A DNA stretch of 19,997 nucleotides. Source: Candidatus Muproteobacteria bacterium RIFCSPHIGHO2_01_FULL_65_16 (GTDB taxonomy: Bacteria; Pseudomonadota; Gammaproteobacteria; Acidiferrobacterales; Sulfurifustaceae). Positions 1,922 through 19,989 of the stretch are shown here, in pieces (the stretch's first letter is position 1; every line of letters begins with the position of its first letter). The position numbers were made by a program, and so were the translations under genes. Location: positions 1 to 19,997 of the forward strand of contig MFSY01000017.1 of NCBI GenBank assembly GCA_001785175.1, written 5' to 3'. The notes beneath the pieces are model-generated. The model did not search any database, was not told the origin of the DNA, and worked only from the letters and a program-made list of their open reading frames with translations.

Positions 1922-2013
1922 ATATGAGTTCTTGACGCAAAGACGCGAAGGCGCAAAGAGTTATTTATGTTCATCTTGATCTCTAAACCTTTGCGCCTTT
2001 GCGTCAAACAATA
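1922..2013. repeat. CGCAAAG inverted-repeat element, nuoM-nuoN gap
   Basis: The left arm (1932-1958) is TTGACGCAAAGACGCGAAGG continuing CGCAAAG, three units. The right arm (1989-2007), CTTTGCGCCTTTGCGTCAA, has two units. The spacer is 30 bases. The element fills the gap; its left flank (ATATGAGTTC) runs into the nuoN ATG. Across the 18 bases from the start codon into the arm it differs from the nuoI-nuoJ copy at only one position. Confidence 0.92.
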
Positions 2014-3495
2014 TTACAGCTTCGACACCGACACCTGCTGCAGCAGGTGCTCGACCGAGGCGTGCATCACGTCCAGGAATGGGAACGGCCACAGCCCCAT
2101 GACCAGCACGGCGAGCGCGAGCGCCGCCAGATACGCGATCTCGCGCGGCGTCGCGTCGGCGAGCTGGGCGACGTGGTCGTTGGCCACCGCGCCGAAGAGC
2201 ACGCGTTTGTACATCCACAGCGTATAGGCGGCGCCGAACACGAGCGTCGTGGCCGCGAGGAAGGCGTACCAGACGTTCACCTGGAAGGCGCCGAGGATCA
2301 CCAGGAACTCGCCGACGAAGCCGGAAGTGCCGGGCAGGCCGGTGTTGGCCATGGCGAACAGCATCATGAAGGCGGCGAACACCGGCATGGTGTTGGCCAC
2401 GCCGCCGTAGTCCTTGATCATGCGCGAGTGCAGCCGGTCGTACAGCACGCCGACGCACAGGAACAGGGCGCCGGAGATGAAACCGTGCGAGACCATCTGC
2501 GCGATCCCGCCCTCTATGCCCTGGGCGTTGAAGACGAAGAAGCCGAGCGTGACGAAGCCCATGTGCGCGATCGAGGAATAGGCGATGAGCTTCTTCATGT
2601 CCTCCTGCACCAGCGCCACCAGGCCGATGTACACCACGGCGATGAGCGAGAGCGTGATCATGAACCAGGCGAGCTCGTGCGAGGCGTCCGGCAGGATCGG
2701 CAGGTTGAAGCGCAGGAAGCCGTAGGCGCCCATCTTGAGCATGATGGCCGCGAGGATCACCGAGCCCCCGGTCGGCGCCTCGACGTGCGCGTCCGGCAGC
2801 CAGGTGTGCACCGGCCACATCGGCACCTTGACCGCGAACGCCGCGAAGAACGCGAGGAAGATGAGGATCTGCTCGGTCAGGCCGAGCTTCACCGCCGGCC
2901 AGGCCAGGATGTCGAAGCTGCCGCCGGACCGATAGTAGAGATAGATGAACGCCACCAGCATCAGCACCGAGCCGAGGAAGGTGTAGAGGAAGAACTTGAT
3001 CGTGGCGTAGACCCGGTTCGGCCCGCCCCACAGGCCGATGATGAGAAACATCGGCACCAGCATGCCTTCCCAGAAGACGTAGAACAGGATCGCGTCGAGC
3101 GCGCTGAACACCCCGATCATCAGCCCTTCCATGATGAGGAACGCGGCCATGTACTGCGCCACCTTCCGCTGAATCACCAGCCAGGCCGAGATCACCACCA
3201 GCACGGTGCTGAAGCTGGTGAGCAGGATCAGCAGCAGCGAGATGCCGTCAATGCCCAGGCGGTAGCGGATGTTGAAGGCCTCGATCCACGGATAGTTCTC
3301 GCCGAACTGCATCTCGTGGGTGCGCGCGTCGAACCCGATGTAAAGCGGAATGGTGGCGAGGAACGCGGCGACGGCGAAGCCCAGGCCCAGCCGGCGGGCG
3401 AGGTTGGCGTTGCGGTCGCCGCCGGTGGCGAGCACGGCCACGCCGCCCAGTATCGGCAGCCAGGTGGCGATGCTTAATAGGTGTTGGCTCAGCAT
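2014..3495 (-). CDS. nuoM: NADH-quinone oxidoreductase subunit M (NuoM)
   Basis: Second antiporter-like proton-pumping subunit, related to MrpD. The 493 residues have about 14 hydrophobic segments. Key residues are Glu143 in FYVFWEGMLVPMFLIIG and Lys223 in AFAVKVPMWPVHTWLPDAHV, followed by EAPTGGSVILAAIMLKMGAYG and then AYSSIAHMGFVTLG, matching the E. coli protein (509 residues). The ATG at 3493-3495 has no obvious Shine-Dalgarno sequence and probably depends on coupling to nuoL, whose stop is five bases before it. The TAA stop is followed within about six bases by a CGCAAAG repeat element. Confidence 0.97.
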   Translation of the reverse strand: MLSQHLLSIATWLPILGGVAVLATGGDRNANLARRLGLGFAVAAFLATIPLYIGFDARTHEMQFGENYPWIEAFNIRYRLGIDGISLLLILLTSFSTVLVVISAWLVIQRKVAQYMAAFLIMEGLMIGVFSALDAILFYVFWEGMLVPMFLIIGLWGGPNRVYATIKFFLYTFLGSVLMLVAFIYLYYRSGGSFDILAWPAVKLGLTEQILIFLAFFAAFAVKVPMWPVHTWLPDAHVEAPTGGSVILAAIMLKMGAYGFLRFNLPILPDASHELAWFMITLSLIAVVYIGLVALVQEDMKKLIAYSSIAHMGFVTLGFFVFNAQGIEGGIAQMVSHGFISGALFLCVGVLYDRLHSRMIKDYGGVANTMPVFAAFMMLFAMANTGLPGTSGFVGEFLVILGAFQVNVWYAFLAATTLVFGAAYTLWMYKRVLFGAVANDHVAQLADATPREIAYLAALALAVLVMGLWPFPFLDVMHASVEHLLQQVSVSKL

Positions 3496-3499
3496 GCGG

Positions 3500-5464
3500 C
3501 TAGCGGTAGAGGAAAACGGTGATCAGCAGGAACAGGCCGAGGATCATGGCGAAGGCGTAGTGGTACACGTAGCCCGACTGGACGTGGCGCACGACCGTCG
3601 CCACCCAGCCGATCACGCGCGCCGTGCCGTTCACCGCCAGGCCGTCTATGAGTTTCACGTCGCCGATCCGCCACAGCAGTCCGCCGAAGCGGCGCGCGCC
3701 GCCGGCGAAGACGGTGTCGTTGAACTCGTCAAAGCCGTATTTGCGCACCAGGATGGTGTAGGGCAGCCGGAATTTCCGGCTCAGCTCCTCCGGCAGCTGC
3801 GGATAGCGGTAGTACAGGAGCCACGCGAGCCCGATGCCGCCGACGGCCAGCAGGAACGGCGCCGATTGCAGCCCGTGGGCGACGAACGGCCCCCAGCCGT
3901 GGTAATCCTGTCCGAGCCGCGCGAGCACGTCGTGTCCCGGCAGCACCTTGAGCGCGGCGCCGAAATAGCCGCCGAACAGGAGCGGCTCGACGGTCAAGAA
4001 CCCGATGACAACCGACGGGAGCGCGAGCAGCACCAGCGGCACGGTCACCACCCACGGCGACTCCTTGAGGTGCGAACGCGCGTGCTCGTCCATGCGCGGC
4101 TTGCCGTAGAACGTCATGAACAGCATGCGGAAGGTGTAGAGCGCGGTGACGAACACGCCGGAGAGCACCGCGACATAGGCGAAGCCGCTCCCGGGGAGCT
4201 GCGAGGCGTGCACCGCCTCGATGATCATGTCCTTGGAGAAGAAGCCGGCGAACGGCGGGATGCCGACGAGCGCCAGCGATCCGGCCCAGGCCGTGAGGAA
4301 GGTCCACGGCATGTAGTCCTTGAGCCCGCCCATCTTGCGCATGTCCTGCTCGTGGTGCAGCGCGATGATCACCGAGCCCGCGGCCAGGAACAGCAGCGCC
4401 TTGAAGAAGGCGTGGGTCATGAGATGGAAGATGCCGGCGGCGTAGGCCGAGGCCCCGAGCGCCACCATCATGTAGCCGAGTTGCGACAGGGTCGAGTACG
4501 CGACCACGCGCTTGATGTCGTTCTGCACGATGCCGACGAAGGCCATGAACAGCGCGGTGATCGCGCCGATCACGAGCACCACCGACAGCGCGGTCTCGGA
4601 CAACTCATAGAGCGGCGACATGCGCGCCACCATGAACACGCCCGCGGTCACCATGGTCGCGGCGTGGATCAGGGCCGAGATCGGCGTCGGACCCTCCATC
4701 GAGTCCGGCAGCCACACGTGCAGCGGCACCTGCGCCGATTTGCCCATGGCGCCGATGAACAGCAGAATGCAGACGAGCGTGAGCACGCTCCAGTCCACGC
4801 CCGGGATGATCTGCGCCGTCTTGCCCGCCAGCTGCGGGGCGATGGCGAACACCGGGGTGTAATCGAGCGTGCCGAAATAGAGATACACCGCGGCGACGCC
4901 GAGGATGAAACCGAAGTCGCCGACGCGGTTGACGATGAAGGCCTTGAGCTGGGCGTGGGTCGCGGACGCGCGCGTGAACCAGAAGCCGATCAGGAGGTAC
5001 GACATCAGGCCGACCGCCTCCCAGCCGAAGAACAGCTGGAGGAAGTTGTTCGCCATCACCAGCATCAGCATCGAGAAGGTGAAGAGCGCGATGTAGCTGA
5101 AGAACCGCTGATAGCCCGGGTCGTCGCGCATGTAGCCGACGGTGTAGATGTGCACCATGAGCGAGACGAACGTGACCACCGTCATCATCAGCGCGCTCAG
5201 CGGGTCAATGAGGAAGCCGATCTCGAGCGGGACGCCGCCGCTCACGCCCCAGGTGTACACCGCGCCGTCGTAGGTGTGGCCGGCGAGCACGTCCGGCAGC
5301 ACGACGAACGCCGACAGCACGAATGCGCCCGCGACCCCGAGGATGGCCGCGGTGTGCGACGCCGCCCGGCCGATCTTCCAGCCGAGCAGCCCGGCGATCA
5401 GCGCCCCCGCCAGGCACGAGAGCGGGATCAGGAGATAGACGGTTTTCATTTCCAGGCCGAACAT
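3500..5464 (-). CDS. nuoL: NADH-quinone oxidoreductase subunit L (NuoL)
   Basis: Distal antiporter-like proton-pumping subunit of the membrane arm, related to MrpA. The 654 residues are somewhat longer than E. coli NuoL (613). The family core is present: Glu149 in FFGWEAVGLMSYLLIGFW and Lys242 in GAMGKSAQVPLHVWLPDSME, followed by GPTPISALIHAATMVTAG and then AYSTLSQLGYM and THAFFKALLFLAAGSV. The C-terminal part (about 540-654) holds the lateral helix and the last helix. The ATG at 5462-5464 has AAGGG nine bases upstream. An in-frame ATG at codon 6 is a possible alternative. Four bases separate it from nuoM. Confidence 0.96.
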   Translation of the reverse strand: MFGLEMKTVYLLIPLSCLAGALIAGLLGWKIGRAASHTAAILGVAGAFVLSAFVVLPDVLAGHTYDGAVYTWGVSGGVPLEIGFLIDPLSALMMTVVTFVSLMVHIYTVGYMRDDPGYQRFFSYIALFTFSMLMLVMANNFLQLFFGWEAVGLMSYLLIGFWFTRASATHAQLKAFIVNRVGDFGFILGVAAVYLYFGTLDYTPVFAIAPQLAGKTAQIIPGVDWSVLTLVCILLFIGAMGKSAQVPLHVWLPDSMEGPTPISALIHAATMVTAGVFMVARMSPLYELSETALSVVLVIGAITALFMAFVGIVQNDIKRVVAYSTLSQLGYMMVALGASAYAAGIFHLMTHAFFKALLFLAAGSVIIALHHEQDMRKMGGLKDYMPWTFLTAWAGSLALVGIPPFAGFFSKDMIIEAVHASQLPGSGFAYVAVLSGVFVTALYTFRMLFMTFYGKPRMDEHARSHLKESPWVVTVPLVLLALPSVVIGFLTVEPLLFGGYFGAALKVLPGHDVLARLGQDYHGWGPFVAHGLQSAPFLLAVGGIGLAWLLYYRYPQLPEELSRKFRLPYTILVRKYGFDEFNDTVFAGGARRFGGLLWRIGDVKLIDGLAVNGTARVIGWVATVVRHVQSGYVYHYAFAMILGLFLLITVFLYR

Positions 5465-5467
5465 GGC

Positions 5468-5773
5468 TTAACCCTTCAGCGTGTCCAGGTCTTCGACGTT
5501 GATCGTGCGGCGGTTGCGGAACACCACCACCAGGATCGCCAGGCCGATGGCCGACTCGGCCGCGGCCACCGTGAGCACGAAGAACACGAACACCTGGCCG
5601 GAGATGTCGCCGAGATAATGCGCGAAGGCGACGAAGTTCAGGTTCACCGCCAGCAGCATGAGCTCGATCGCCATCAGCAGAATCACCAGATTCTTGCGAT
5701 TGAGGAAGACGCCCACGACCGCGATCGAAAACAATATCGCGCCGAGGATCAGGTAATGGCTGAGCGGTATCAT
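5468..5773 (-). CDS. nuoK: NADH-quinone oxidoreductase subunit K (NuoK)
   Basis: Small three-helix membrane subunit related to MrpC, part of the fourth proton-translocation path. The 101 residues include the two membrane glutamates of the family, Glu37 ([16 protein letters not shown]) and Glu73 ([13 protein letters not shown]). The protein ends in a hydrophilic tail, [10 protein letters not shown]. The ATG at 5771-5773 ([15 protein letters not shown]) follows GGGGAGGAA very closely, with about two bases between GGAGG and the ATG; this start matches known NuoK N-termini. A 3-base gap separates it from nuoL. Confidence 0.97.
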
Positions 5774-5796
5774 TTCCTCCCCTGAATTTCCTTATG

Positions 5797-5900
5797 ATCG
5801 TTTGGCGCAAAGGCGCAAAGACGCAAAGGTAGATCGTTTTTTAACAACATCTGTTTTGCGTTCATCTTTCTTCGCGCCTTTGCGTCTTTGCGTCGAAAAT
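5797..5900. repeat. CGCAAAG inverted-repeat element, nuoJ-nuoK gap
   Basis: The left arm (5802-5828) is TTGGCGCAAAGGCGCAAAGA continuing CGCAAAG. The right arm (5873-5897), CGCGCCTTTGCGTCTTTGCG then TCGAA, is the reverse complement with a few differences. The spacer (44 bases) is AT-rich and contains a T6 run. The left end is further from the next start than in the other copies, so nuoK keeps a native ribosome binding site. Confidence 0.9.
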
Positions 5901-5905
5901 TCATA

Positions 5906-6511
5906 TCAACTTTTCTTTTCCGCTGGCATCTTGACCAGGCGCACGCGCTCGCTGCGCTCGACCCGTACCTGCCGCCCCGGGTCCTGGTACTTGGTGTCCT
6001 TGCGCCGGCGCAGCGTGAGCACGATCGCCGCGATGATGGCCACCAGCAGCACCAGCGCCGCGAGCTCGAACGGATAGGCGTAGGTCGTGTACAGCAGCCG
6101 CCCCAGGGCGCGCGTGTTGCTGGCGTCCGCGGCCAGTCCCGCCGGCTCCGGCACGCGCTCGAGGCCGAAGCGCCCGGAGCCGAGGACCAGGGCCATCTCG
6201 GCCGCCAGCAGCACCGCCACCGCCCCGCCGAGCGGAAGATACCTGGTGAAGCCCTCGCGCAGGCGGGCGATGTTGATGTCGAGCATCATCACCACGAACA
6301 GGAACAGCACCATCACCGCGCCGACGTACACCAGCACCAGCACGATGGCCAGGAACTCCGCCTGCAGCAGCAGCCACAGCCCGGCGGCGTTGAAGAAGGC
6401 CAGCACCAGGAACAGCGCCGCCTTCACCGGGTTTTTCACGGTGATCACCATGGTCGCGGCGAACACCAGCACCGCGGCAAAGAAATAAAAGATGAATTGT
6501 TTGAATTCCAT
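5906..6511 (-). CDS. nuoJ: NADH-quinone oxidoreductase subunit J (NuoJ)
   Basis: Membrane-arm subunit with about five transmembrane helices, next to NuoH and NuoK, forming part of the link from the quinone site to the proton channels. The 201 residues include the family segment VLVLVYVGAVMVLFLFVVMM (about 57-76, third helix with its conserved Tyr-Val-Gly-Ala) and NTRALGRLLYTTYAYPFELA before the last helix. The C-terminus is basic and hydrophilic (RRRKDTKYQDPGRQVRVERS). The ATG at 6509-6511 has no Shine-Dalgarno sequence: the 25 bases upstream are the end of the repeat element. The TGA stop is eight bases from another copy of that element. Confidence 0.96.
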   Translation of the reverse strand: MEFKQFIFYFFAAVLVFAATMVITVKNPVKAALFLVLAFFNAAGLWLLLQAEFLAIVLVLVYVGAVMVLFLFVVMMLDINIARLREGFTRYLPLGGAVAVLLAAEMALVLGSGRFGLERVPEPAGLAADASNTRALGRLLYTTYAYPFELAALVLLVAIIAAIVLTLRRRKDTKYQDPGRQVRVERSERVRLVKMPAEKKS

Positions 6512-6614
6512 ATATTAGTTCTTGACGCAAAGGCGCAAAGGCGCAAAGAAAGGCTTGTGGAGTAGCTTCATTTTACGATTTCTTTGCGCCTTCGCGCCTT
6601 TGCGTCAAAAATTA
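6512..6614. repeat. CGCAAAG inverted-repeat element, nuoI-nuoJ gap
   Basis: This is the clearest copy. The left arm (6522-6551) is TTGACGCAAAGGCGCAAAGG continuing CGCAAAGAAA, and the right arm (6579-6608) is its reverse complement with one mismatch over 30 bases. The spacer is 27 bases. The element fills the entire gap: the left outer flank (ATATTAGTTC) runs up to the nuoJ ATG, and the right flank is six bases from the nuoI stop. The transcript could form a very stable hairpin between the two cistrons. Confidence 0.93.
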
Positions 6615-7103
6615 TTATCGGTACTTCGCGTCCGCGGCGCGCGCGGCGGCGATCAGTTTTTCGTACTTGTCGCCCACGGCGAGCAGCCGGTCCTTGGAGT
6701 AGACCAGGTCGCCGCGCTGCTCGCCGTGGTAGTCAATCACGTGCGTCTCGACGATCGAGTCCACCGGGCAGGCCTCCTCGCAGAAGCCGCAGAAGATACA
6801 CTTGGTGAGGTCGAGGTCGTAGCGCGTGGTGCGGCGCGTGCCGTCGGCGCGCTGTTCCGATTCGATGGTGATGGCGAGCGCCGGGCAGATGGCCTCGCAC
6901 AGCTTGCAGGCGATGCAGCGCTCCTCGCCGTTCGGGTAGCGGCGCAGCGCGTGCAGGCCGCGAAAGCGCGGGCTCATCGGCGTGCGCTCCTCCGGATACT
7001 GGACGGTGATCTTGCGCGCGAACAGGTGCCGGCCCGTGAGCATCAGGCCCCGGAGCAGCTCGAACAGCAGGAAGCTGTTGATGTAGCGTTTGAGCGCGTT
7101 CAC
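6615..7103 (-). CDS. nuoI: NADH-quinone oxidoreductase subunit I (NuoI), clusters N6a/N6b
   Basis: Ferredoxin-like subunit with two [4Fe-4S] clusters that connect NuoG to cluster N2. The 162 residues contain both motifs: Cys63, 66, 69, 73 in [12 protein letters not shown] and Cys102, 105, 108, 112 in [12 protein letters not shown]. The N-terminal helix (about 1-27) lies along the membrane surface in known structures. The start is GTG at 7101-7103, nine bases after nuoH, with GAGA upstream; a nearby ATG (7108-7110) is out of frame. The TAA stop (6615-6617) is followed within about six bases by a CGCAAAG repeat element. Confidence 0.96.
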
Positions 7104-7112
7104 GTCGGCATC

Positions 7113-8183
7113 TCAGTGAAAGACGCCGCCCCACGGCGTGAGAAAAGTGGCGCCCCCGATGACGCCGATCCACACGAGCGTCACCGGGATGAACACCTTC
7201 CAGCCGAGGCGCATGATCTGGTCGTAGCGGTAGCGCGGGAAGGTGGCGCGGAACCAGAGGAAGCAGAACAGCAGCAGGCTCACCTTGAGCAGCAGCCAGT
7301 GGACGCCGCCGCCGAGCAGCGCCCCGAGCAGCGGCACCTCCGGCACCCACTGCGGCGGCAGCGGCGAGAGCCAGCCGCCGAGGAACATGACCGCGGTCAG
7401 GACCGAGATCAGGATCATGTTGGCGTACTCGGCGAGGAAGAAGAGCGCGAACGTCATGCCCGAATACTCGACGTGGAAGCCGGCCACGATCTCGGACTCG
7501 CCCTCGGCGACGTCGAACGGCGCGCGGTTGGTCTCGGCCACGCCGGCGATGAAATACACCAGGAACAGCGGCAGCAGCGGCAGCAGGTACCACTGGTGCA
7601 GTCCGCCCTGCTGGTGCAACACGATCTCGCGCAGGTTGAGGCTCCCGGCCGCCATCAGCACGCCCACGAGCGCGAACCCCATGGCGATCTCGTAGGCGAC
7701 GATCTGGGCCGCCGAGCGCATCGCGCCGAGGAAGGCGTACTTCGAGTTCGACGCCCAGCCGGCGACGATGACGCCGTAGACGCCCAGCGAGGACAGCGCC
7801 AGGATGAACAGCAGCCCGGCGTCAATGTTCGTCACCCACATCGTGTCGGTGAACGGGATCACCGCCCAGGCCACGAGCGCCGGGGCGAAGGCGAGCAGCG
7901 GCGCGATCACGAACAGGAACTTGTTGGCGTTCGCCGGGACGATGATCTCCTTCAGGATCAGCTTGAGCGCGTCCGCGAGCGGCTGCAGCCAGCCGCGCGG
8001 GCCGACGCGATTCGGGCCGATGCGCACCTGGATGTAGCCGATGATCTTGCGCTCGGCGAAGGTGAGATAGGCGACCGCCAGGATCAGCGGCAGCACGATG
8101 GCCAGGATCTTGGCGAGGTCGAGCAGCGCGCCCTGCGACCACGCCGGCAACCCGTTCCAGGTGCCCAGCAGGAACTCGGTCAT
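7113..8183 (-). CDS. nuoH: NADH-quinone oxidoreductase subunit H (NuoH)
   Basis: Membrane subunit that anchors the peripheral arm and closes the quinone channel; it is related to the membrane subunits of hydrogenases. The 356 residues contain about eight hydrophobic helices. Landmarks are [20 protein letters not shown] then [19 protein letters not shown] (about 39-75), the acidic loop [19 protein letters not shown], and [20 protein letters not shown], with the conserved Glu and Asp residues thought to couple quinone reduction to proton movement. The ATG at 8181-8183 has GGGGAGGG upstream and overlaps the nuoG stop (ATGA). The longer open frame upstream overlaps nuoG and is rejected. A 9-base gap follows before nuoI. 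Confidence 0.97.
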
Positions 8184-10618
8184 GCGCCCTCCCCGACGAT
8201 CGTCGCCGGACCGTGCCCGCCGAGCGTGGCGGTTTCCGGACAGCCCGCCGGAATCAGCACGCAGCCGTCCGGCACGCGCGCGTCCACGACGACCTTGAGC
8301 CGCGCGTCGCCCTCGATCATGCGCACCAGCACGCCGTCGCCGTCCTTGAGCTTGAGCCGCTCGGCCTGCGCCGCGTTCAGGCACGCCGCGGGCTCGGGGT
8401 TGGCGGCGGTCTTCTGCAGCGAGGCGGCGCGGCGCGTGATCGCGTCCACCGCGTACATCGGCACCTCGGCGATGCGCAGCACCTGGCCGCTCGGCGCCGC
8501 CAGCCCCGCGGGCGGCACCGCCGAGAGCTGCCACGCGCCGAGCCGCGCCGTGGGCGCGACGGCGCCGGTGTCAATCTCGCGCCGCACGTCCTCGATGTCC
8601 GCCTGCTCGAAGCCGGAGAGCCCGAGCAGGTTGCCGAGCACGCGCAGGATCTTCCAGCCGGGGCGCGCCTGGCCGAGCGGCGCGACCGCGCCGTTGAATT
8701 CCTGGCGCCGGCCCTCGGCGTTGACGAACGTGCCCGCGGTCTCGGTGAACGGCGCCAGCGGCAGCAGCACGTCGGCGTACTCCACCGCCCGGGTGCGGAA
8801 CGGCGACGGCTTGAACGTGGTCAGCATGGCCACGAACTGCGCCGCCTGCATCGCCGCAAGCGCGCGCGCGCCGCTGATGCCGTCGAGCTCCGGCTCGACG
8901 CCGAGGAGCAGATAGGCCTGGCGCGGCTCGCGCAGCATGGCCGCGGCGTTGCGCCCGGCCGGCGCCGCCGGTTTTCCCGCCGGCCCGCGGTGCGGCACGC
9001 AGCCGGCGAGCCAGCCGGCGGCGGAGTCGGCCTCGGGGATGAAGCCGAAGCGCGCGCCCGCGGTCTCGGCGACGAGCTGCGCCAGCGCGCGCACGCTGGC
9101 CGAAAGCGGATGGCTCGTGGCGAGCGCGCCGAGCAGCACCGCGGCGGGCCGGCGTTCCGCGAGCGCGCGCGCCATGGCCTGATCGGTTTCGGTCGGGGCG
9201 ACGTCCCGGTACTGCGCCGTGAACGGCGCCGGCAGCTCGGCGCCCTTCAACGCGCCCAGGGCCTTGGCCACGCCGGCGAGCCGCTCCAGCAGCTTCAGCG
9301 GGTCGGTGACCGTCTTGTGCGCGATCTTGTAGTTGAAGTCGTAGTCCACGGCGTTGACGGCCATGACGCACGCGCCCCGGAGGGCGGCCTTGCGCAGGCG
9401 CAGGTTGAGCAGCGGCGCCTCGCGGCGCGGGTCGGCGCCCACGAGCAGGACCGCGGCCAACTGCTCCAGATCCGCGAGCGCCTGGCCGAGCCACGGGAAC
9501 GGCGGCATCGCGGCGTCGTCGCTGAAATCCGACTGGCGCAGGCGATGATCCACGTTGCCGGAGCCGAGCGCGCGCACGAGCTTCTGCAACAGGTAAAACT
9601 CCTCGAGCGTCGCGCCCGGCGCGGCGAGCGCGCCGACGCCGTCCGGCCCGTGCGTCTTGAGGGCCTGCTTCAGCCCCTGCGCCGTGAACTCGATCGCGGT
9701 GTTCCAGTCGGTCTCCTCCCACATGCCGTTGACGCGGATCATGGGCGCGCGCAGGCGCTCCTCGCTGTTCAGCGCCTCGTAGCTGAAGCGGTCGCGGTCG
9801 GAGAGCCAGCACTCGTTGACCGCCTCATTCTCGCGCGGCAGCACCCGCAGCACCCGGCCGTTGCGCGTCTGCACCGTGAGGTTGCTGCCGACGCAGTCGT
9901 GCGGCGCGACCGAGGCGCGGCCCCGCAGCTCCCACGGGCGCGCGCTGTAGCGGTAGGGCTTGGAGGTGAGCGCGCCCACCGGGCACAGGTCAATGACGTT
10001 GCCGGACAGCTCCGAGTTCACGCTGCCGTCGAGGAAGGTCCGGATCTCGGTGCGGTCGCCGCGCCCGAGGCCACCGAACTCCATGACGCCGGCGATTTCT
10101 TTCCCAAAACGCACGCAGCGCGTGCAGTGGATGCAGCGCGTCATCTCGGTGGCGATCAGCGGGCCGATGTCCTTGTCCACGACCGCGCGCTTGGGCTCGG
10201 TAAAGCGCGCGACGTCCTTGCCGTAGCCGAGCGCCAGGTCCTGCAACTGGCACTCGCCGCCCTGGTCGCAGACCGGGCAGTCGAGCGGGTGGTTGATGAG
10301 CAGGAACTCCATCACGCCCTGCTGCGCGGCGCGCGCCTTGTCCGAACGCGTGCGCACGATCATGCCGTCCGCCACCGGCGTGGCGCACGCCGGCATCGGC
10401 TTGGGCGCCTTCTCCACCTCGACCAGGCACATGCGGCAGCTGGCCGCGATGGACAGCTTCTTGTGATAGCAGAAGCGCGGGATGTAGACGCCGGCGGCGT
10501 CGGTGGCCTGGATCAGCATCGCGCCCTTGCGCACCTGGATCTTCTTGCCGTCAACGACGATGGTGACCTGGTCGGCGGCCGGCGCGGCCGCGCTCACGGT
10601 CTCGGGCTTGGCGCTCAT
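8180..10618 (-). CDS. nuoG: NADH-quinone oxidoreductase subunit G (NuoG), clusters N1b, N4, N5
   Basis: The 75-kDa subunit that wires electrons from NuoF toward NuoI and NuoB. The 812 residues begin with a ferredoxin-like [2Fe-2S] domain (N1b: Cys50, 61, 64, 78). The His-Cys3 N5 site follows (His110, Cys114, Cys117, Cys123 in [14 protein letters not shown]), then N4 (Cys162, 165, 168 in CIHCTRC and Cys212 in LCPVGAL), then a molybdopterin-oxidoreductase-like domain from about 235 onward. The optional N7 site of E. coli is missing: only Cys242 and Cys270 remain in the corresponding region. The ATG at 10616-10618 has GGAGGG six bases upstream and overlaps nuoF by 4 bases; upstream in-frame sequence overlaps nuoF and is rejected. 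The stop overlaps nuoH by 4 bases. Confidence 0.97.
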
Positions 10619-11901
10619 GCCGCCCTCCGTATAGTCTCCGGCAGACAGGCGCGCCGCTCGATGTGATATTCGAATTCGCTCCGGAAGTGTTTGACGAAGC
10701 TCTTGACCGGCCAGGCGGCGGCGTCGCCCAGGGCGCAGATGGTGCGGCCCTCGATGTTGGAGGCGACGTCGGTCAGCAGGTCCAGGTCCTCGGGCCGGCC
10801 CTGGCCGTGTTCGATGCGGTGCAGCACGCGCGCCAGCCAGCCGGTGCCCTCGCGGCAGGGCGTGCACTGGCCGCACGACTCCTCGTAATAGAAATGCGAC
10901 AGCCGCGCGAGGGCCCGCACCATGCAGGTGGTCTCGTCCATGACGATCACCGCGCCCGAACCGAGCGCCGAACCGGCCTTGGCGAGCGCGTCGTAGTCCA
11001 TGGTGCAGTCCATGATGACGTCCGCGGGCATCACCGGCATGGACGATCCGCCGGGGATCACGGCCTTGAGCCGGTGCCCGTGGCGCACGCCGCCGGCCAG
11101 CTCCAGCAGCTTCACGAACGGCGTGCCCAGGGGGACCTCGTAGTTTCCGGGCTTGTTCACGTGGCCCGAGACCGAGAAGACCTTCGGCCCGCCGTTGTTG
11201 GGCTTGCCGATATTAAGGAACCAGTCCGCGCCGTTGCGCATGATGTCCGGCACCGACGCCAGGGTCTCGGTGTTGTTGATGGTGGTCGGCCGCCCGAACA
11301 GGCCGTAGGTCGCTGGAAACGGCGGCTTGTAGCGCGGGAACGCCTTCTTGCCCTCGATGGATTCGAGCAGCGCCGTCTCCTCGCCGCAGATGTAGGCCCC
11401 GGCGCCGAGGTGCGTGTGGATATCGAGGTCCACGCCCGCGTCCTGGATGTTGCGACCGAGCAGCCCGGCCGCGTACGCCTCCTTGAGCGCGCCCTCGAAG
11501 CGCTCGTACGGCTCCCAGAACTCGCGCCGGATGTAGTTGTAGCCCGCGGTCGCGCCGATGGCATAGCCGGCGATGGCCATGCCCTCGACCACGGCGTGCG
11601 GGTTGAATCGCAGAATGTCGCGGTCCTTGAACGTGCCCGGCTCGCCCTCGTCCGAGTTGCACACGAGGTATTTCTGGCCCGGCGCGGACCGGGGCATGAA
11701 GGACCATTTCAGGCCGGTGGAGAAACCGGCGCCGCCGCGCCCGCGCAGGGCGGATTTCTTGAGCGTCTCGATGATGGTCTCCGGCGGTGTTTTTTCCGTG
11801 AGGATTTTTTTCCACGCCTCGTAGCCGCCGGCGGCCTCGTAGGCCGCGAGCGTCCAGGAGCGGTCGCGGTGCAGGTTGCGGAAACAGACCTCGTTGGCCA
11901 T
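10615..11901 (-). CDS. nuoF: NADH-quinone oxidoreductase subunit F (NuoF), NADH/FMN site and cluster N3
   Basis: The 51-kDa subunit that binds NADH, FMN and [4Fe-4S] cluster N3 at the tip of the peripheral arm; the entry point for electrons. The 428 residues show the nucleotide/flavin loop GRGGAGF (54-60), [13 protein letters not shown] (82-94), [18 protein letters not shown] (167-184), and the N3 ligands Cys343, Cys346 and Cys349 in SCGQCTPC plus Cys389 in TICALGDAA. The ATG at 11899-11901 gives [16 protein letters not shown]. There is no Shine-Dalgarno sequence, and a GC-rich 6-bp stem lies 15 bases upstream. The stop overlaps the nuoG start as ATGA. Confidence 0.97.
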
Positions 11902-12283
11902 GGTTATGTGGTCGAGCGGCCTGCGGCCGCGTGTATGAGCGGGCTCCCGCGCCCGCACGGCGGGTCCATTTCTTTGTACGCGCAAAGAAATGGACGAAAG
12001 AAACGCGCCCCGGTCGCTCGCCGCGAGCAAAAGGCGCTCGCGGTGCCCTGCGCTCCTCGCTCGGCCGGGCGCTCGCCTAACTCGCCGGGCGCAGACAACG
12101 CGCCTCGGGCTCGACCAGAGGCTCGCGACACCCCCCGGCCTCGGCTGCGGTGCTCGGCTCGCTCCGACGGGGATAAGAAAGAACCCATCAGGCCGTGCTG
12201 GGGATTGGTACGCCGTAACAGCAGCGACGGTGTGTTCTCCATTCCCGGATGGCGCGCCCAAACCTCTAACGCCGCGGCGCCAT
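11902..12283. repeat. Long GC-rich dispersed-repeat-like element, nuoE-nuoF gap
   Basis: This 382-base gap holds no gene I can support. It contains a perfect 13-bp inverted repeat, GTCCATTTCTTTG (11964-11976) and CAAAGAAATGGAC (11983-11995), with a 6-base loop. It continues on the plus strand with GACGAAAGAAACGCGCCCCG and a GC-rich stretch (CCCTGCGCTCCTCGCTCGGC, GGGCGCTCGCCTAACTCGCC). This layout resembles a dispersed intergenic repeat I recall from many gamma- and betaproteobacteria that is often wrongly called as a gene (recollection, not searched). A second short stem, GCGGCC-TGC-GGCCGC (11916-11930), sits 15 bases upstream of the nuoF ATG. The open frame running from 12261 into nuoF is a by-product of GC-rich repeat sequence. 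Confidence 0.6.
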
Positions 12284-12757
12284 TCATTTCAACGTCTCCA
12301 GTATCTGATCAATCTTCTCCGGCGTGAGGCGCTCGTGGTAGTCCTTGCCCGCCGCCAGCGCCGGCGCGCCGCCGCAGGCCCCGAGGCACTCGACCTCCTT
12401 CAGGGTGAACCGGCCGTCGGCCGTGGTCTCGCCGAGCTTGACGCCGAGCCGCTGTTCCAGGTGCGCCACGACGTCGTCGGAGCCGCACAGCATGCAGGAG
12501 ATGTTGGTGCAGACGCAGAGCTTGTGGCGGCCGACGGGCTTGAGGTCGTACATCGAATAGAAGCGCGCCACCTCGTGCGCCACCATCGGCGGCATCTCCA
12601 GGTACTCCGCGACCGCGTTGATGAGCTCGGGCGTGAGCCAGCCGCCGTTGGCGTCCTGGACGACGAACAGCGCCGCCATCACCGCCGACTGGCGGCGGTC
12701 GGGCGGGTATTTGGCGACCCAGCGATCAATCTCCGCGAGTGATTGTTTGGATAACAT
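12284..12757 (-). CDS. nuoE: NADH-quinone oxidoreductase subunit E (NuoE), cluster N1a
   Basis: The 24-kDa thioredoxin-like [2Fe-2S] subunit of the NADH-oxidising module, partner of NuoF. The 157 residues show the four expected ligands, Cys83 and Cys88 in VCTNISC and Cys124 and Cys128 in ECLGACGG. Extra Cys81 and Cys91 flank the first pair; most homologues have Arg at the second site. The ATG at 12755-12757 gives [13 protein letters not shown]. Reading 11 codons further upstream would only translate the repeat element and is rejected. There is no Shine-Dalgarno sequence, because the sequence before the ATG is the end of the repeat (GCGTCAAACATTAGT). A 382-base repeat-filled gap separates it from nuoF. 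Confidence 0.95.
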
Positions 12758-12761
12758 ACTA

Positions 12762-12915
12762 ATGTTTGACGCAAAGACGCAAAGACGCAAAGAAAATATA
12801 CGTACGAGTAAAACCGAGATGACCCACGGTCACCCGGCCGTGCGCATATATTCTTGTGTTCTTGGCTTTCACTCTGGGTGTCCTTTGCGTCTTAGCGCCT
12901 TTGCGTCAAAAACTC
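12762..12915. repeat. CGCAAAG inverted-repeat element, nuoD-nuoE gap
   Basis: The left arm (12765-12794) is TTTGACGCAAAGACGCAAAG and continues with ACGCAAAGAA, three 8-bp units. The right arm (12883-12910), CTTTGCGTCTTAGCGCCTTT then GCGTCAAA, is the reverse complement with few mismatches. The 88-base spacer is the longest of the four copies and contains its own nested pairing (CACGG/CCGTG around 12825-12845) and an ATATA/TATAT pair near its ends. No ORF is present. The left edge lies just upstream of the nuoE ATG and the right edge about 10 bases beyond the nuoD stop. Confidence 0.9.
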
Positions 12916-12920
12916 ATAGC

Positions 12921-15870: not shown

Positions 15871-15950
15871 AACCGCCAAGACGCCAAGGTCGCCAAGAAA
15901 GGCAATTTTTCAACGGCAAAAAACTTGGCGTTCTTGGCGTCTTGGCGGTT
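15871..15950. repeat. CGCCAAGA inverted repeat, tRNA-nuoA gap
   Basis: The left arm (15871-15900) reads AACCGCCAAGACGCCAAGGT and continues with CGCCAAGAAA. The right arm (15924-15950), CTTGGCGTTCTTGGCGTCTT then GGCGGTT, is its reverse complement with few mismatches. The unit is 8-9 bp and the spacer 23 bases. It lies downstream of the tRNA on the transcribed strand and could fold into a strong hairpin ending tRNA transcription, but no U-tract follows, so a terminator role is only a guess. It has the same layout as the CGCAAAG elements but a distinct unit. Confidence 0.85.
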
Positions 15951-16080: not shown

Positions 16081-16204
16081 GACAGGATTAACAGGATTTT
16101 TCAGGATTTACAGGATTAAGTCCAACGGACGATAGCCAAAAACTCACTCGAAATACGGAACCCAGAAAATCCTGTTAATCCTGCGAAATCTTGTTAATCC
16201 TGTC
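16081..16204. repeat. CAGGATT inverted-repeat element, secG-tRNA gap
   Basis: The left arm (16081-16118) holds four CAGGATT units at 9-10-base spacing. The right arm (16166-16204) is the imperfect reverse complement, with a 47-base spacer. It is the same family as 19044-19134. The right outer flank (CTATTCGTTTTCTATT) resembles the matching flank of the other copy (CTATTCCTTTCTATT), and each contains the stop codon of the neighbouring gene. There is no coding content. Confidence 0.85.
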
Positions 16205-17525: not shown

Positions 17526-18887
17526 CTACGCCGCTTCTTCCGCGGCGCGCTGGACGGTGTCGGCGAGCTGGCGCGAGAGGCGCTCGACCTGGGAGGCGTC
17601 GCGGCCCTCGACCATGACGCGGATCACGGGCTCGGTGCCGGAGGGGCGCAGCAGCACGCGCCCCTGGTCGGCCAGCTCCGTCTCCGCCTGCCGCACCGCC
17701 TGTCTGATCTTGGGCGAGGCGCCGACGTCGAAGCGCGCGCCGATGCGGACGTTGATCATGGTCTGCGGATAGATCTGCATGCCGGACTTGAGCTGCGCCA
17801 GGGTCTTGCCGGCGCCCACCATCACCGCCAGCGCCTCGAGCGCGGTTATGATGCCGTCGCCGGTGGTGCTCTTGTCGAGGCAGAGGACGTGGCCCGATGA
17901 TTCCCCGCCGAGCTCCCAGCCCTCCTGCTGCAACAGACTCAGGACATACCGATCGCCGACGGCCGCGCGCTTGAACGGGATGCCGCGCTCGCGGCAGGCG
18001 TGCTCCAGCCCGAGATTGCTCATGAGAGTGCCGGCGATGCCGCCGCGCAGGCGGCCCGCGGCGTGGCGCGCGCTACCGACAATATAAAGTATCTGATCGC
18101 CGTCAACGCACTGGCCGCCCGCGTCCACCAGGATGACGCGGTCGCCGTCGCCGTCGAGGGCGATGCCGGCGTCGGCGCCCTTCTCGGTCACGGTCTTCTG
18201 CAACAGCTTCGGGCTGGTCGAGCCGCAGTCGCGGTTGATGTTGAAGCCGTCCGGGTCGTTGGCGATGGCGATGACCTCGGCGCCGAGTTCCTCGAACACG
18301 TGCGGCGCGATCTGGTAGGCGGCGCCGTTGGCGCAATCCACCACGAGCTTGAGGCCGGCGAGGCTCTGGCGGTGCGGGAAGGTGCTCTTGCAATACTCGA
18401 TGTAGCGGCCGGCGGCGTCGTCGTAGCGCTTCGCCTTGCCCAGGCGCGCGGACGCCACGGTCGCGAGCGGTCGGGCCATCATCTCCTCGATCGCGGCCTC
18501 GACCTCATCGGGAAGCTTCGCGCCCTCGGAGGAGAAAAACTTGATGCCGTTGTCCTCATAGGGATTGTGCGAGGCGGAGATCACGATGCCGGCGCGCGCC
18601 CGGGCGGTGCGCGTGAGATACGCGATCCCCGGCGTCGGCATCGGCCCGAGCAGGCGGATGTCCACGCCCGCGGCCGACAGCCCCGATTCGAGCGCCGACT
18701 CCAGCATGTAGCCCGAGACGCGCGTGTCCTTGCCGATCAGGATCTTTCCCGGATCGCCGTCCTTGCCGCCCAGCACCATGCCCGCGGCCCAGCCGAGCTT
18801 CAGCACCGTCTCGGGCGTGATGGGCTCATCGCCGACCCGGCCGCGGATACCGTCGGTGCCGAAGTAGTGTCGTTTGTTCGTTGCCAT
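17526..18887 (-). CDS. glmM: Phosphoglucosamine mutase GlmM
   Basis: Interconverts glucosamine-6-phosphate and glucosamine-1-phosphate, the step before GlmU on the way to UDP-GlcNAc for peptidoglycan and LPS; cytoplasmic and activated by serine phosphorylation. The 453-residue protein (E. coli about 445) has all the alpha-D-phosphohexomutase landmarks: YFGTDGIRG at the N-terminus, the phosphoserine loop ISASHNP with catalytic Ser106, the metal loop DGDGDR (Asp245, 247, 249), the sugar-binding GESSGH (328-333) and the phosphate loop RPSGTEP (414-420). The start chosen is ATG at 18885-18887, giving [10 protein letters not shown]. An ATG two codons upstream (18891-18893) is equally possible, and neither has a clear Shine-Dalgarno sequence. 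The TAG stop is four bases from the AGCTGAT repeat downstream. Repeats separate it from both folP and tpiA. Confidence 0.96.
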
Positions 18888-18913
18888 ATCCATCTTTAAA
18901 GATAAATAAAGAT

Positions 18914-19043: not shown

Positions 19044-19134
19044 GACAGGATTAACAGGATTTCTCAGGATTTACAGGATTATTTCGAGAATTCTTTAATC
19101 TTGTTAATCCTGTTCTAATCCTGTTAATCCTGTC
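19044..19134. repeat. CAGGATT inverted-repeat element, folP-glmM gap
   Basis: The left arm (19044-19081) is built of repeated ACAGGATT-type units with a 9-10-bp period. The right arm (19096-19134) is its imperfect reverse complement, with a 14-base spacer. A second copy lies at 16081-16204 between secG and tRNA-Leu. The folP stop codon lies about 10 bases beyond the right arm. There is no open reading frame inside. It could form a hairpin in RNA, but there is no U-tract to make it a classic terminator. The repeat is directly visible; its mobility is inferred. Confidence 0.85.
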
Positions 19135-19143
19135 TATTCCTTT

Positions 19144-19989
19144 CTATTCCTTTGCGCCTGGGTAAACCGCCGCGTACATCCGCAGCGCCTCCACCGTCGG
19201 TCCCACGTCGTGCACCCGGACGATGCGCGCTCCATTTTGCACCGCCAGGAGCGCCAGCGCCACACTCGCGTGCAACCGCTGCTCGACCGGCAGCCCCAGG
19301 GCCTTGCCGATCATTGATTTGCGCGATAGCCCCGCGAGCACCGGCGCGCCGAGCCCCGCGAATTCCCCGAGCCTGCGCAGCAACTCGAGATTGTGCTCCA
19401 GGGTCTTGCCGAAGCCGAAGCCTGGATCAACCAGGATCCGTTCCCTCGGGATACCGGCCGCGACGCAGGCCGCGATACGCGCCTCCAGAAAAGCGCGGAC
19501 GTCGTGCACGACATCAGCGTAATGCGGGTTCTCCTGCATGGTGCGCGGCTCGCCCTGCATGTGCATGAGACAGACCGGCACCTTGAGCGCCGCCACCGTT
19601 TCCAGCGCGCCGGGGGCGCGCAGGGCCGTAACGTCGTTGATCAATCCCGCGCCGGCCGCGACCGCCGCGCGCATCACCTCCGGCTTCGAAGTATCCACGG
19701 AGACGGGAACGGGAAGCGCGCGCGCGATCGCCTCGATCACCGGGATCACGCGGTCGAGCTCCTCCCGCGCCGAGACCGCGCGCGCGCCGGGACGGGTGGA
19801 TTCGCCGCCGACGTCAATGATCGCCGCGCCCTCATCCAGCATGCGCCGGGCGCGCGCGAGCGCGCTTTCGGGGGCCAAAAAAACACCCCCGTCCGAGAAG
19901 GAATCGGGGGTGACATTCAGTATCCCCATCACCGCGGGGCGGGAGAGGTCGAGTGACCTTCCTCCGCAATCGAGAACGATCGTAATCAC
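19144..19989 (-). CDS. folP: Dihydropteroate synthase FolP (5' end near window edge)
   Basis: Cytoplasmic folate enzyme that condenses 6-hydroxymethyl-dihydropterin pyrophosphate with p-aminobenzoate to give dihydropteroate; it is the sulfonamide target. The 281-residue protein matches the usual length (about 280) and shows the family signatures in order: GILNVTPDSFSDGG (residues 22-35), GGESTRPGA (61-69), SVDTSKP (97-103), NDVTALR (118-124), DPGFGFGK (188-195), GLSRKS (220-225) and RVHDV (258-262). The TIM-barrel fold is inferred from the family. The first in-frame start seen is GTG at 19987-19989, only 8 bases from the window edge, so an upstream ATG outside the window cannot be excluded. 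In related genomes folP follows ftsH and precedes glmM, and glmM is indeed next here. The TAG stop lies in sequence shared with the flank of the adjacent CAGGATT repeat (see findings). Identity is secure; the start is uncertain. Confidence 0.95.
   Translation of the reverse strand: MITIVLDCGGRSLDLSRPAVMGILNVTPDSFSDGGVFLAPESALARARRMLDEGAAIIDVGGESTRPGARAVSAREELDRVIPVIEAIARALPVPVSVDTSKPEVMRAAVAAGAGLINDVTALRAPGALETVAALKVPVCLMHMQGEPRTMQENPHYADVVHDVRAFLEARIAACVAAGIPRERILVDPGFGFGKTLEHNLELLRRLGEFAGLGAPVLAGLSRKSMIGKALGLPVEQRLHASVALALLAVQNGARIVRVHDVGPTVEALRMYAAVYPGAKE

Follow-up and report, generated by a model that had tools for sequence, protein, structure and literature searches.

Palindromes with inward-facing CGCAAAG arms in a nuo operon as probable members of a dispersed element family linked to a Cas4-like nuclease

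Short palindromes scattered between bacterial genes can be acted upon in trans by an enzyme encoded at another site, as the RAYT transposases are thought to do for REPINs, and among the miniature inverted-repeat transposable elements (MITEs) the Correia/NEMIS repeats are examples. Closest to the elements treated here are the REPIN-RAYT systems (PMC2817692, PMC3116915), the hupL MITE of Thiomargarita, which its authors tied to a PD-(D/E)XK_2 (YhgA) gene (PMC4853749), and the intervening sequences (IVSs) of 23S rRNA (PMC4990558). We report on the first 19,997 nucleotides of contig MFSY01000017.1 (assembly GCA_001785175.1, forward strand; hereafter the window) of Candidatus Muproteobacteria bacterium RIFCSPHIGHO2_01_FULL_65_16, the genome of which comprises 1.7 Mb on 135 contigs and is 78.9% complete. 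Four palindromes with CGCAAAG arms occupy gene junctions of the nuo operon in the window, and these probably belong, as non-autonomous copies, to a dispersed family of nuclease-linked palindromic elements, organised as in REPIN-RAYT systems and associated with an unrelated enzyme. Directly observed are the common design and its dispersal, matching arms around a nuclease gene, the agreement of arm motif with nuclease clade, orthologous sites that are nearly empty, and the placement in gene gaps.

A first-pass annotation of the window had described four inverted arrays at nuoM|nuoN, nuoJ|nuoK, nuoI|nuoJ and nuoD|nuoE, and all four are present at these junctions (Table 1); the bordering genes are nuo genes according to Pfam, with nuoH assigned by position and from relatives. 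Each arm consists of three 8-bp (R)CGCAAAG units, with the exception of the right arm at M|N, which has two, and the arrays are separated by spacers of 30 (M|N), 41 (J|K), 33 (I|J) and 90 bases (D|E), the last of these cores having a hairpin of its own inside. The high arm identity that had been noted is borne out (one mismatch in 30 bases at I|J), and the four spacers are unrelated to one another, as had been stated, while 11 of the 65 clusters surveyed share one core (see below). The palindromes nearly fill their gaps (92 bases at M|N, 132 at J|K, 103 at I|J and 163 at D|E). The TAA stop codons of nuoM and nuoI fall within the ends of the M|N and I|J palindromes, respectively, and a Shine-Dalgarno-like GGGGAGG is left between the J|K palindrome and the nuoK start. 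As had been claimed, a single long gap in the operon, E|F with 382 bases, is not explained by the palindromes, and the remaining nuo gaps are at most 19 bases. When folded as RNA all four outperform 200 of 200 shuffles, with z values of -4.4 (M|N), -5.1 (J|K), -11.6 (I|J) and -5.9 (D|E). A scan of the window with Rfam 15 gave tRNA alone above the gathering score, and no S23-like gene was found in the cores of the four palindromes (≤110 bases).

The motif is not specific to nuo: the genome-wide count that had been proposed gave 98 exact CGCAAAGNCGCAAAG sites (48 + 50) across the host genome, where the reversed pattern has 0. A survey of the window together with 40 stretches picked for their CGCAAAGNCGCAAAG sites (325,118 bases) yielded 65 array clusters, 41 two-armed and 24 one-armed by our criterion; all 41 two-armed clusters face inward, and the reversed sequence, used as control, yields 1 array. 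Beyond the arrays the repeat continues for approximately 12 bases to a conserved TA(T/A)(G/T)A end (106 arms: T 92%, A 96%, T 72%/A 22%, G 77%/T 17%, A 100%). For the placement relative to genes we used calls from a custom hexamer model, which replaced poor longest-ORF (open reading frame) calls. None of the 65 clusters lies wholly within a called gene, and two overlap a gene end by 42-43 bases. Among 58 stop-side arms, 16 have the stop codon of the neighbouring gene inside the 12-base end, usually TAA (11) or TGA (4), and among 46 start-side arms, 10 have a start codon that begins at a distance of exactly 11 bases from the array. For the 61 clusters with two called neighbours, these are co-directional in 51 cases, convergent in 7 and divergent in 3. 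Enrichment between co-directional genes, a check likewise proposed earlier, is seen relative to gap length (36.6, 10.2 and 14.3 expected, respectively; p 1e-4) and not per junction, where the co-directional share equals the base rate (51/61 elements vs 244/291 junctions).

The core AAGCATCGGATAATC is common to 11 of the 65 clusters with at most 3 mismatches (L013, L018, L020, L023, L024, L033, L039, L040, L042, L044), which suggests that elements have been copied inside this genome. A strand bias of the eleven core-sharing elements was considered and dropped (5 with, 2 against and 4 in convergent gaps). Long CGCAAAG elements also appear to nest other inverted repeats in their cores (L023 2229-2517, L046 3470-3752 and L026 2809-3042), and elements were seen to be tandemly duplicated together with flanking bases (L026 948-1250, L035 4724-4920 and L036 4001-4288).

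Longer members of the family carry one gene, GxxExxY, between their arms. This family (TIGR04256/PF13366) has a small Cas4-like PD-(D/E)XK fold, and PF13366 was searched for on the assumption that GxxExxY genes lie near repeats of this kind. Matches occur in 13 of 60 genomes in the set of relatives, 63 of 398 in a phylum sample and 6 plasmid records. We compiled 72 loci (19 from relatives, 30 from the phylum sample, 3 from plasmids and 20 further copies), 71 of them with usable flanks, and compared their arms with 1763 pseudo-gene window pairs at a 99% threshold. This replaced an earlier control based on mispaired flanks of different GxxExxY loci, the 95% point of which (18.5) was too high because the loci share motifs. 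Inverted arms above 99% of the control pairs were found at 61 of the 71 loci, with 399 motif units pointing inward vs 86 outward, and at least two inward units on both sides at 60 loci (outward, 5). The Bacteroides finegoldii and Bernardetia plasmid copies are also flanked by arms. For one locus (L220) the arm score derives from an adjoining palindrome, and two (L163, L169) had no strand set in the 52-locus arm analysis, in which each was assigned the protein of the preceding entry; L157 was misread. That longer relatives have a Cas4-like nuclease gene between matching arms points to a mobile element that lodges between genes of essential operons.

In genome G019 the nuoM|N gap contains such a gene (L151) flanked by CGCAAAG arms, and others are found at trp junctions, i.e. 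trpE|G (L152, L153), trpG|D (L165) and trpD|C (L190), with neighbours identified by Pfam. Both neighbours are co-directional with the GxxExxY gene at 37 of 47 loci (crude ORF calls; 52 in all), a count in which at least L152 was misread, trpG being on the strand of its GxxExxY gene. Broken GxxExxY genes still framed by arms were observed in G013 C56 (L163/L170) and G019 C149 (L168), and the genes at L169 and L220 are also broken.

The predicted catalytic residues D63, E73-x-K75, Q87 and Y91 are invariant in 33 GxxExxY sequences. The likeness to Cas4 consists of the PD-(D/E)XK fold with a QxxxY motif and a weak PADLOC Cas4 match for one of three proteins (E 5.5e-4); a Foldseek comparison matched 117 residues with an E value of only 3.2e-3 (next VIA rows, 7.1), and solved structures searched by sequence yielded no useful match (best E 0.11). 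In contrast to Cas4, no CRISPR context was seen beside GxxExxY, and none was looked for.

The window palindromes and the nuclease-bearing elements have arms in common, and the arm motif follows the nuclease clade. On a protein tree of 47 of the 52 loci (L157, L163, L168, L169, L220 and the 20 further copies were left out) five arm classes require 4 changes, the least possible, where the minimum among 300 label shuffles is 10; with six classes the numbers are 8 and 20. Nuclease classes and motif counts were also compiled by hand into a class-genome table, in which G001 (L169, CGCAGAG arms, broken gene) was not taken as a CGC-class carrier and G013 and G019 (broken) were counted. The tandem motif of the same class occurs in 13 of 14 class-genome cells with the nuclease vs 20 of 163 without it in the 59 other genomes, and in the window's own family in 11/11 vs 17/46 (Fisher 1.2e-4). 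Scored on the end model of the window's genome, one CGC-class nuclease element at both outer ends (L163; 12.6 and 14.7) and another at one end (L153; 14.6) come near the median of that genome (16.5; background 99.9% point 1.5).

Comparison with relatives for empty sites had also been suggested, and in 80 nuo loci, the nearest from gammaproteobacterial metagenome bins, most of the junctions are either empty or occupied by a different motif class. Median gaps are -1 (D|E), 21 (I|J), 2 (J|K) and 15 bases (M|N) (n = 62, 79, 76 and 59, window included), and in the relative L052, with a NuoD 85% identical, the D|E junction reads TGATG and is near-empty. Of 516 nuo junctions measured, 64 have gaps of at least 45 bases and 10 have at least two inward unit pairs, three of these being the window's (outward, 0); the count omits the D|E element of the window, where the start codon was taken inside the element. 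The nuoM|N junction is occupied by the CGCAAAG palindrome in the window, the GxxExxY element in G019 (L151), and palindromes with CACAGAG arms in L053 and CGCAGATGAACG arms in L120. At I|J, L057 has CAGGATT arms, and at D|E, L075 and L083 have CGCAAAG arms. Other nuo gaps of relatives contain palindromes whose motifs do not resemble CRCRRAG (L104 D|E, L116 L|M and L099 C|D).

Three further palindromes of the same design, with other motifs, are present in the window (Table 1), the last between genes for a phosphoglucomutase-family protein (17526-18893) and a pterin-binding enzyme (19144-19929). All palindromes in the window, whether with CRCRRAG-like or CAGGATT/CGCCAAG units, have inverted tandem arms that point inward, and exact tandem pairs of three motif classes in the genome number 98, 66 and 53. 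The nuoE|F gap (11902-12283) contains repeat-like, GC-rich sequence of another kind, which includes the palindrome gtccatttctttgtacgcgcaaagaaatggac, and the ORF spanning it (11904-12287) has no Pfam match.

Table 1. Palindromes in the window. Fold energies of the last three were computed without shuffles.
Feature	Gap	Positions	Strand	Arrays	Fold (kcal/mol)
CGCAAAG palindrome	nuoM|nuoN	1923..2016	.	1935-1958 + 1989-2004, plus 12-base ends	
CGCAAAG palindrome	nuoJ|nuoK	5793..5905	.	5805-5828 + 5870-5893	
CGCAAAG palindrome	nuoI|nuoJ	6513..6617	.	6525-6548 + 6582-6605	
CGCAAAG palindrome	nuoD|nuoE	12757..12918	.	12769-12792 + 12883-12906	
Palindrome of same design, CGCCAAG arms	nuoA / tRNA-Leu	15874..15947	.		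-49.7
Palindrome of same design, CAGGATT arms	tRNA-Leu / secG	16083..16183	.		-45.2
Palindrome of same design, CAGGATT arms		19046..19132	.		-49.1

Several observations weigh against a nuclease-linked family as the source of the four palindromes. The GxxExxY (PF13366) profile has no match in the window's genome, at its 78.9% completeness, and the short motif occurs without a same-class nuclease in the 20 of 163 cells of relatives given above. A cross-class control is weakly positive too (Mann-Whitney U test, p 0.04), so part of the association between nuclease and motif reflects general element load. Ten of the 71 GxxExxY loci are below the arm threshold, and most other CGC-class elements with a nuclease (L151, L152, L162, L165) have ends with low scores on the model built for ends of the window type. 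Where one genome has several GxxExxY copies, their identity is only 32-61% and their arm classes usually differ; thus the nuclease itself has not recently multiplied there. No target-site duplication beyond a possible TA was found in 36 elements; the best z of the scan, 4.7 among 1000 combinations, is unconvincing and the TA would arise from the palindrome itself. Finally, no copy was caught moving, and no strain-level presence/absence pair was at hand.

The annotation had offered two origins, tiny elements that repeatedly entered the operon or RNA hairpins selected to set subunit ratios. In the second case the palindromes would be regulatory RNA elements by which nuo mRNA is processed or stabilised. 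The transcript hairpins are indeed very stable, they are sited between co-transcribed genes, and stop and start codons lie near the base of the stem. Occupancy is, however, not conserved (10 of 516 nuo junctions, three of them the window's), palindromes are also present in unrelated operons and, in 7 of 61 cases, between convergent genes, and the motif class at one junction varies between species. Selection for subunit ratios is therefore unsupported as the origin, and we regard it as unlikely; the palindromes may have acquired an RNA effect later. The entry of small elements, the other origin offered, is supported by the dispersed copies, by orthologous junctions that are near-empty or taken up by other motif classes, and by the nuclease gene in longer versions. 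If these are mobile elements, they could be classical MITEs of a DDE transposase with a TA target (IS630/Tc1-like), with GxxExxY as a mere passenger. The TA...TA ends, the terminal inverted repeats and the lack of any other duplication suit this, and the hupL MITE shares with our palindromes short non-autonomous copies, TA ends, hairpin RNA and a possible PD-(D/E)XK partner. The hupL MITE differs in that it has 10-bp direct and 19-bp inverted repeats, interrupts genes and has a TIGR01784/PF12784 partner, not GxxExxY, and tandem arms are not mentioned for it in the available portions of the source (PMC4853749). GxxExxY is found between the arms at every locus examined, although the loci were chosen by that gene, so that a transposase elsewhere is possible, and no DDE search was made; that the arm motif tracks the GxxExxY clade is not expected of a passenger, and a DDE origin seems to us improbable.

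The organisation most resembles that of REPIN-RAYT systems, with many dispersed short intergenic palindromes, a few enzyme genes each between copies of the same repeats, and an arm type tied to enzyme clade, and the host genome has three Y1_Tnp matches. None of these three genes adjoins a CGCAAAG array (two lie ≤350 bases from a contig end), and the RAYT link was rejected on this ground. The consensus of 106 arms also lacks a GTAG/CTAC-type tetranucleotide, the signature of REPINs. The arms here have three tandem 7-10 base units and flank a Cas4-like PD-(D/E)XK nuclease instead of a Y1 HUH transposase, and that the palindromes are REPINs or bacterial interspersed mosaic elements mobilised by a RAYT is highly improbable. 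Slightly less so, and still very unlikely, is that they are IVS-like selfish RNA elements, tolerated as RNase III excises the hairpin from the transcript and moving by an unknown route. IVSs are selfish elements with the same anatomy, in which complementary inverted ends form a stem and the loop contains a small ORF, at a site that tolerates interruption of the RNA (PMC4990558), and most GxxExxY genes are co-directional with both neighbours (37/47, crude ORF calls). In addition, TIGR02436 genes, which encode the four-helix-bundle family carried by IVSs, are bordered in relatives by inverted arms of short repeats (17 matches, of which 13 loci were examined; the median arm score is 22.0, compared with a 95% point of 13.5 and a maximum of 25.5 for mispaired flanks), which suggests a wider shared arm architecture. 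The elements described here are linked to a different protein and are situated between protein or tRNA genes, none within rRNA, whereas IVSs reside in rRNA with an S23 protein, and short empty copies are not their hallmark. Free-standing TIGR02436 genes with inverted arms made of short tandem motifs unlike CGCAAAG were observed at L171-L178, L182-L184, L186 and L187.

We return to the family of nuclease-linked palindromic elements, in which each arm has about three tandem, inward-pointing copies of a purine-rich 7-10 base motif and TA(T/A)(G/T)A forms the ends. We infer that the GxxExxY nuclease moves them. It may recognise the arm motif of its own class, possibly in the form of a cruciform or single-stranded hairpin, and would then move or copy the element; by analogy with RAYTs, it would serve the short copies in trans. 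Copies might be tolerated in nuo because stop codons can be provided by their ends, and because the base of a long transcript hairpin would bring the upstream stop near the downstream start, such that translation continues. RNase III may cut the stem, as in the case of the 23S rRNA IVSs (PMC4990558). The copies in the window are classed as non-autonomous relatives only.

Tentatively, and with clearly less confidence than in the family assignment, the elements could represent a new class of mobile element, in which a minimal Cas4-like nuclease, either unaided or together with host factors, mobilises or copies palindromes of its own tandem motif, with several mutually exclusive specificities and with the stop-start junctions of operons as niche; a second class of the same arm design with TIGR02436 proteins would unite the 23S rRNA IVSs and operon palindromes. 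The annotation knew of no named system of this design, and we likewise found no description in the one open-access library searched, where searches with the exact motif letters returned unrelated papers only and the passage of PMC8934634 with a GxxExxY label beside a reverse transcriptase does not concern these elements; the palindromic element is apparently undescribed. With such a class, the short repeats abundant in these genomes would acquire an enzyme and a natural history, and so would a protein family that NCBI names by its motif alone. Clade-matched arm motifs would amount to ready-made orthogonal nuclease-DNA specificities, and the repeated settlement in nuo and trp junctions makes it testable how operons survive inserts at their stop-start junctions.
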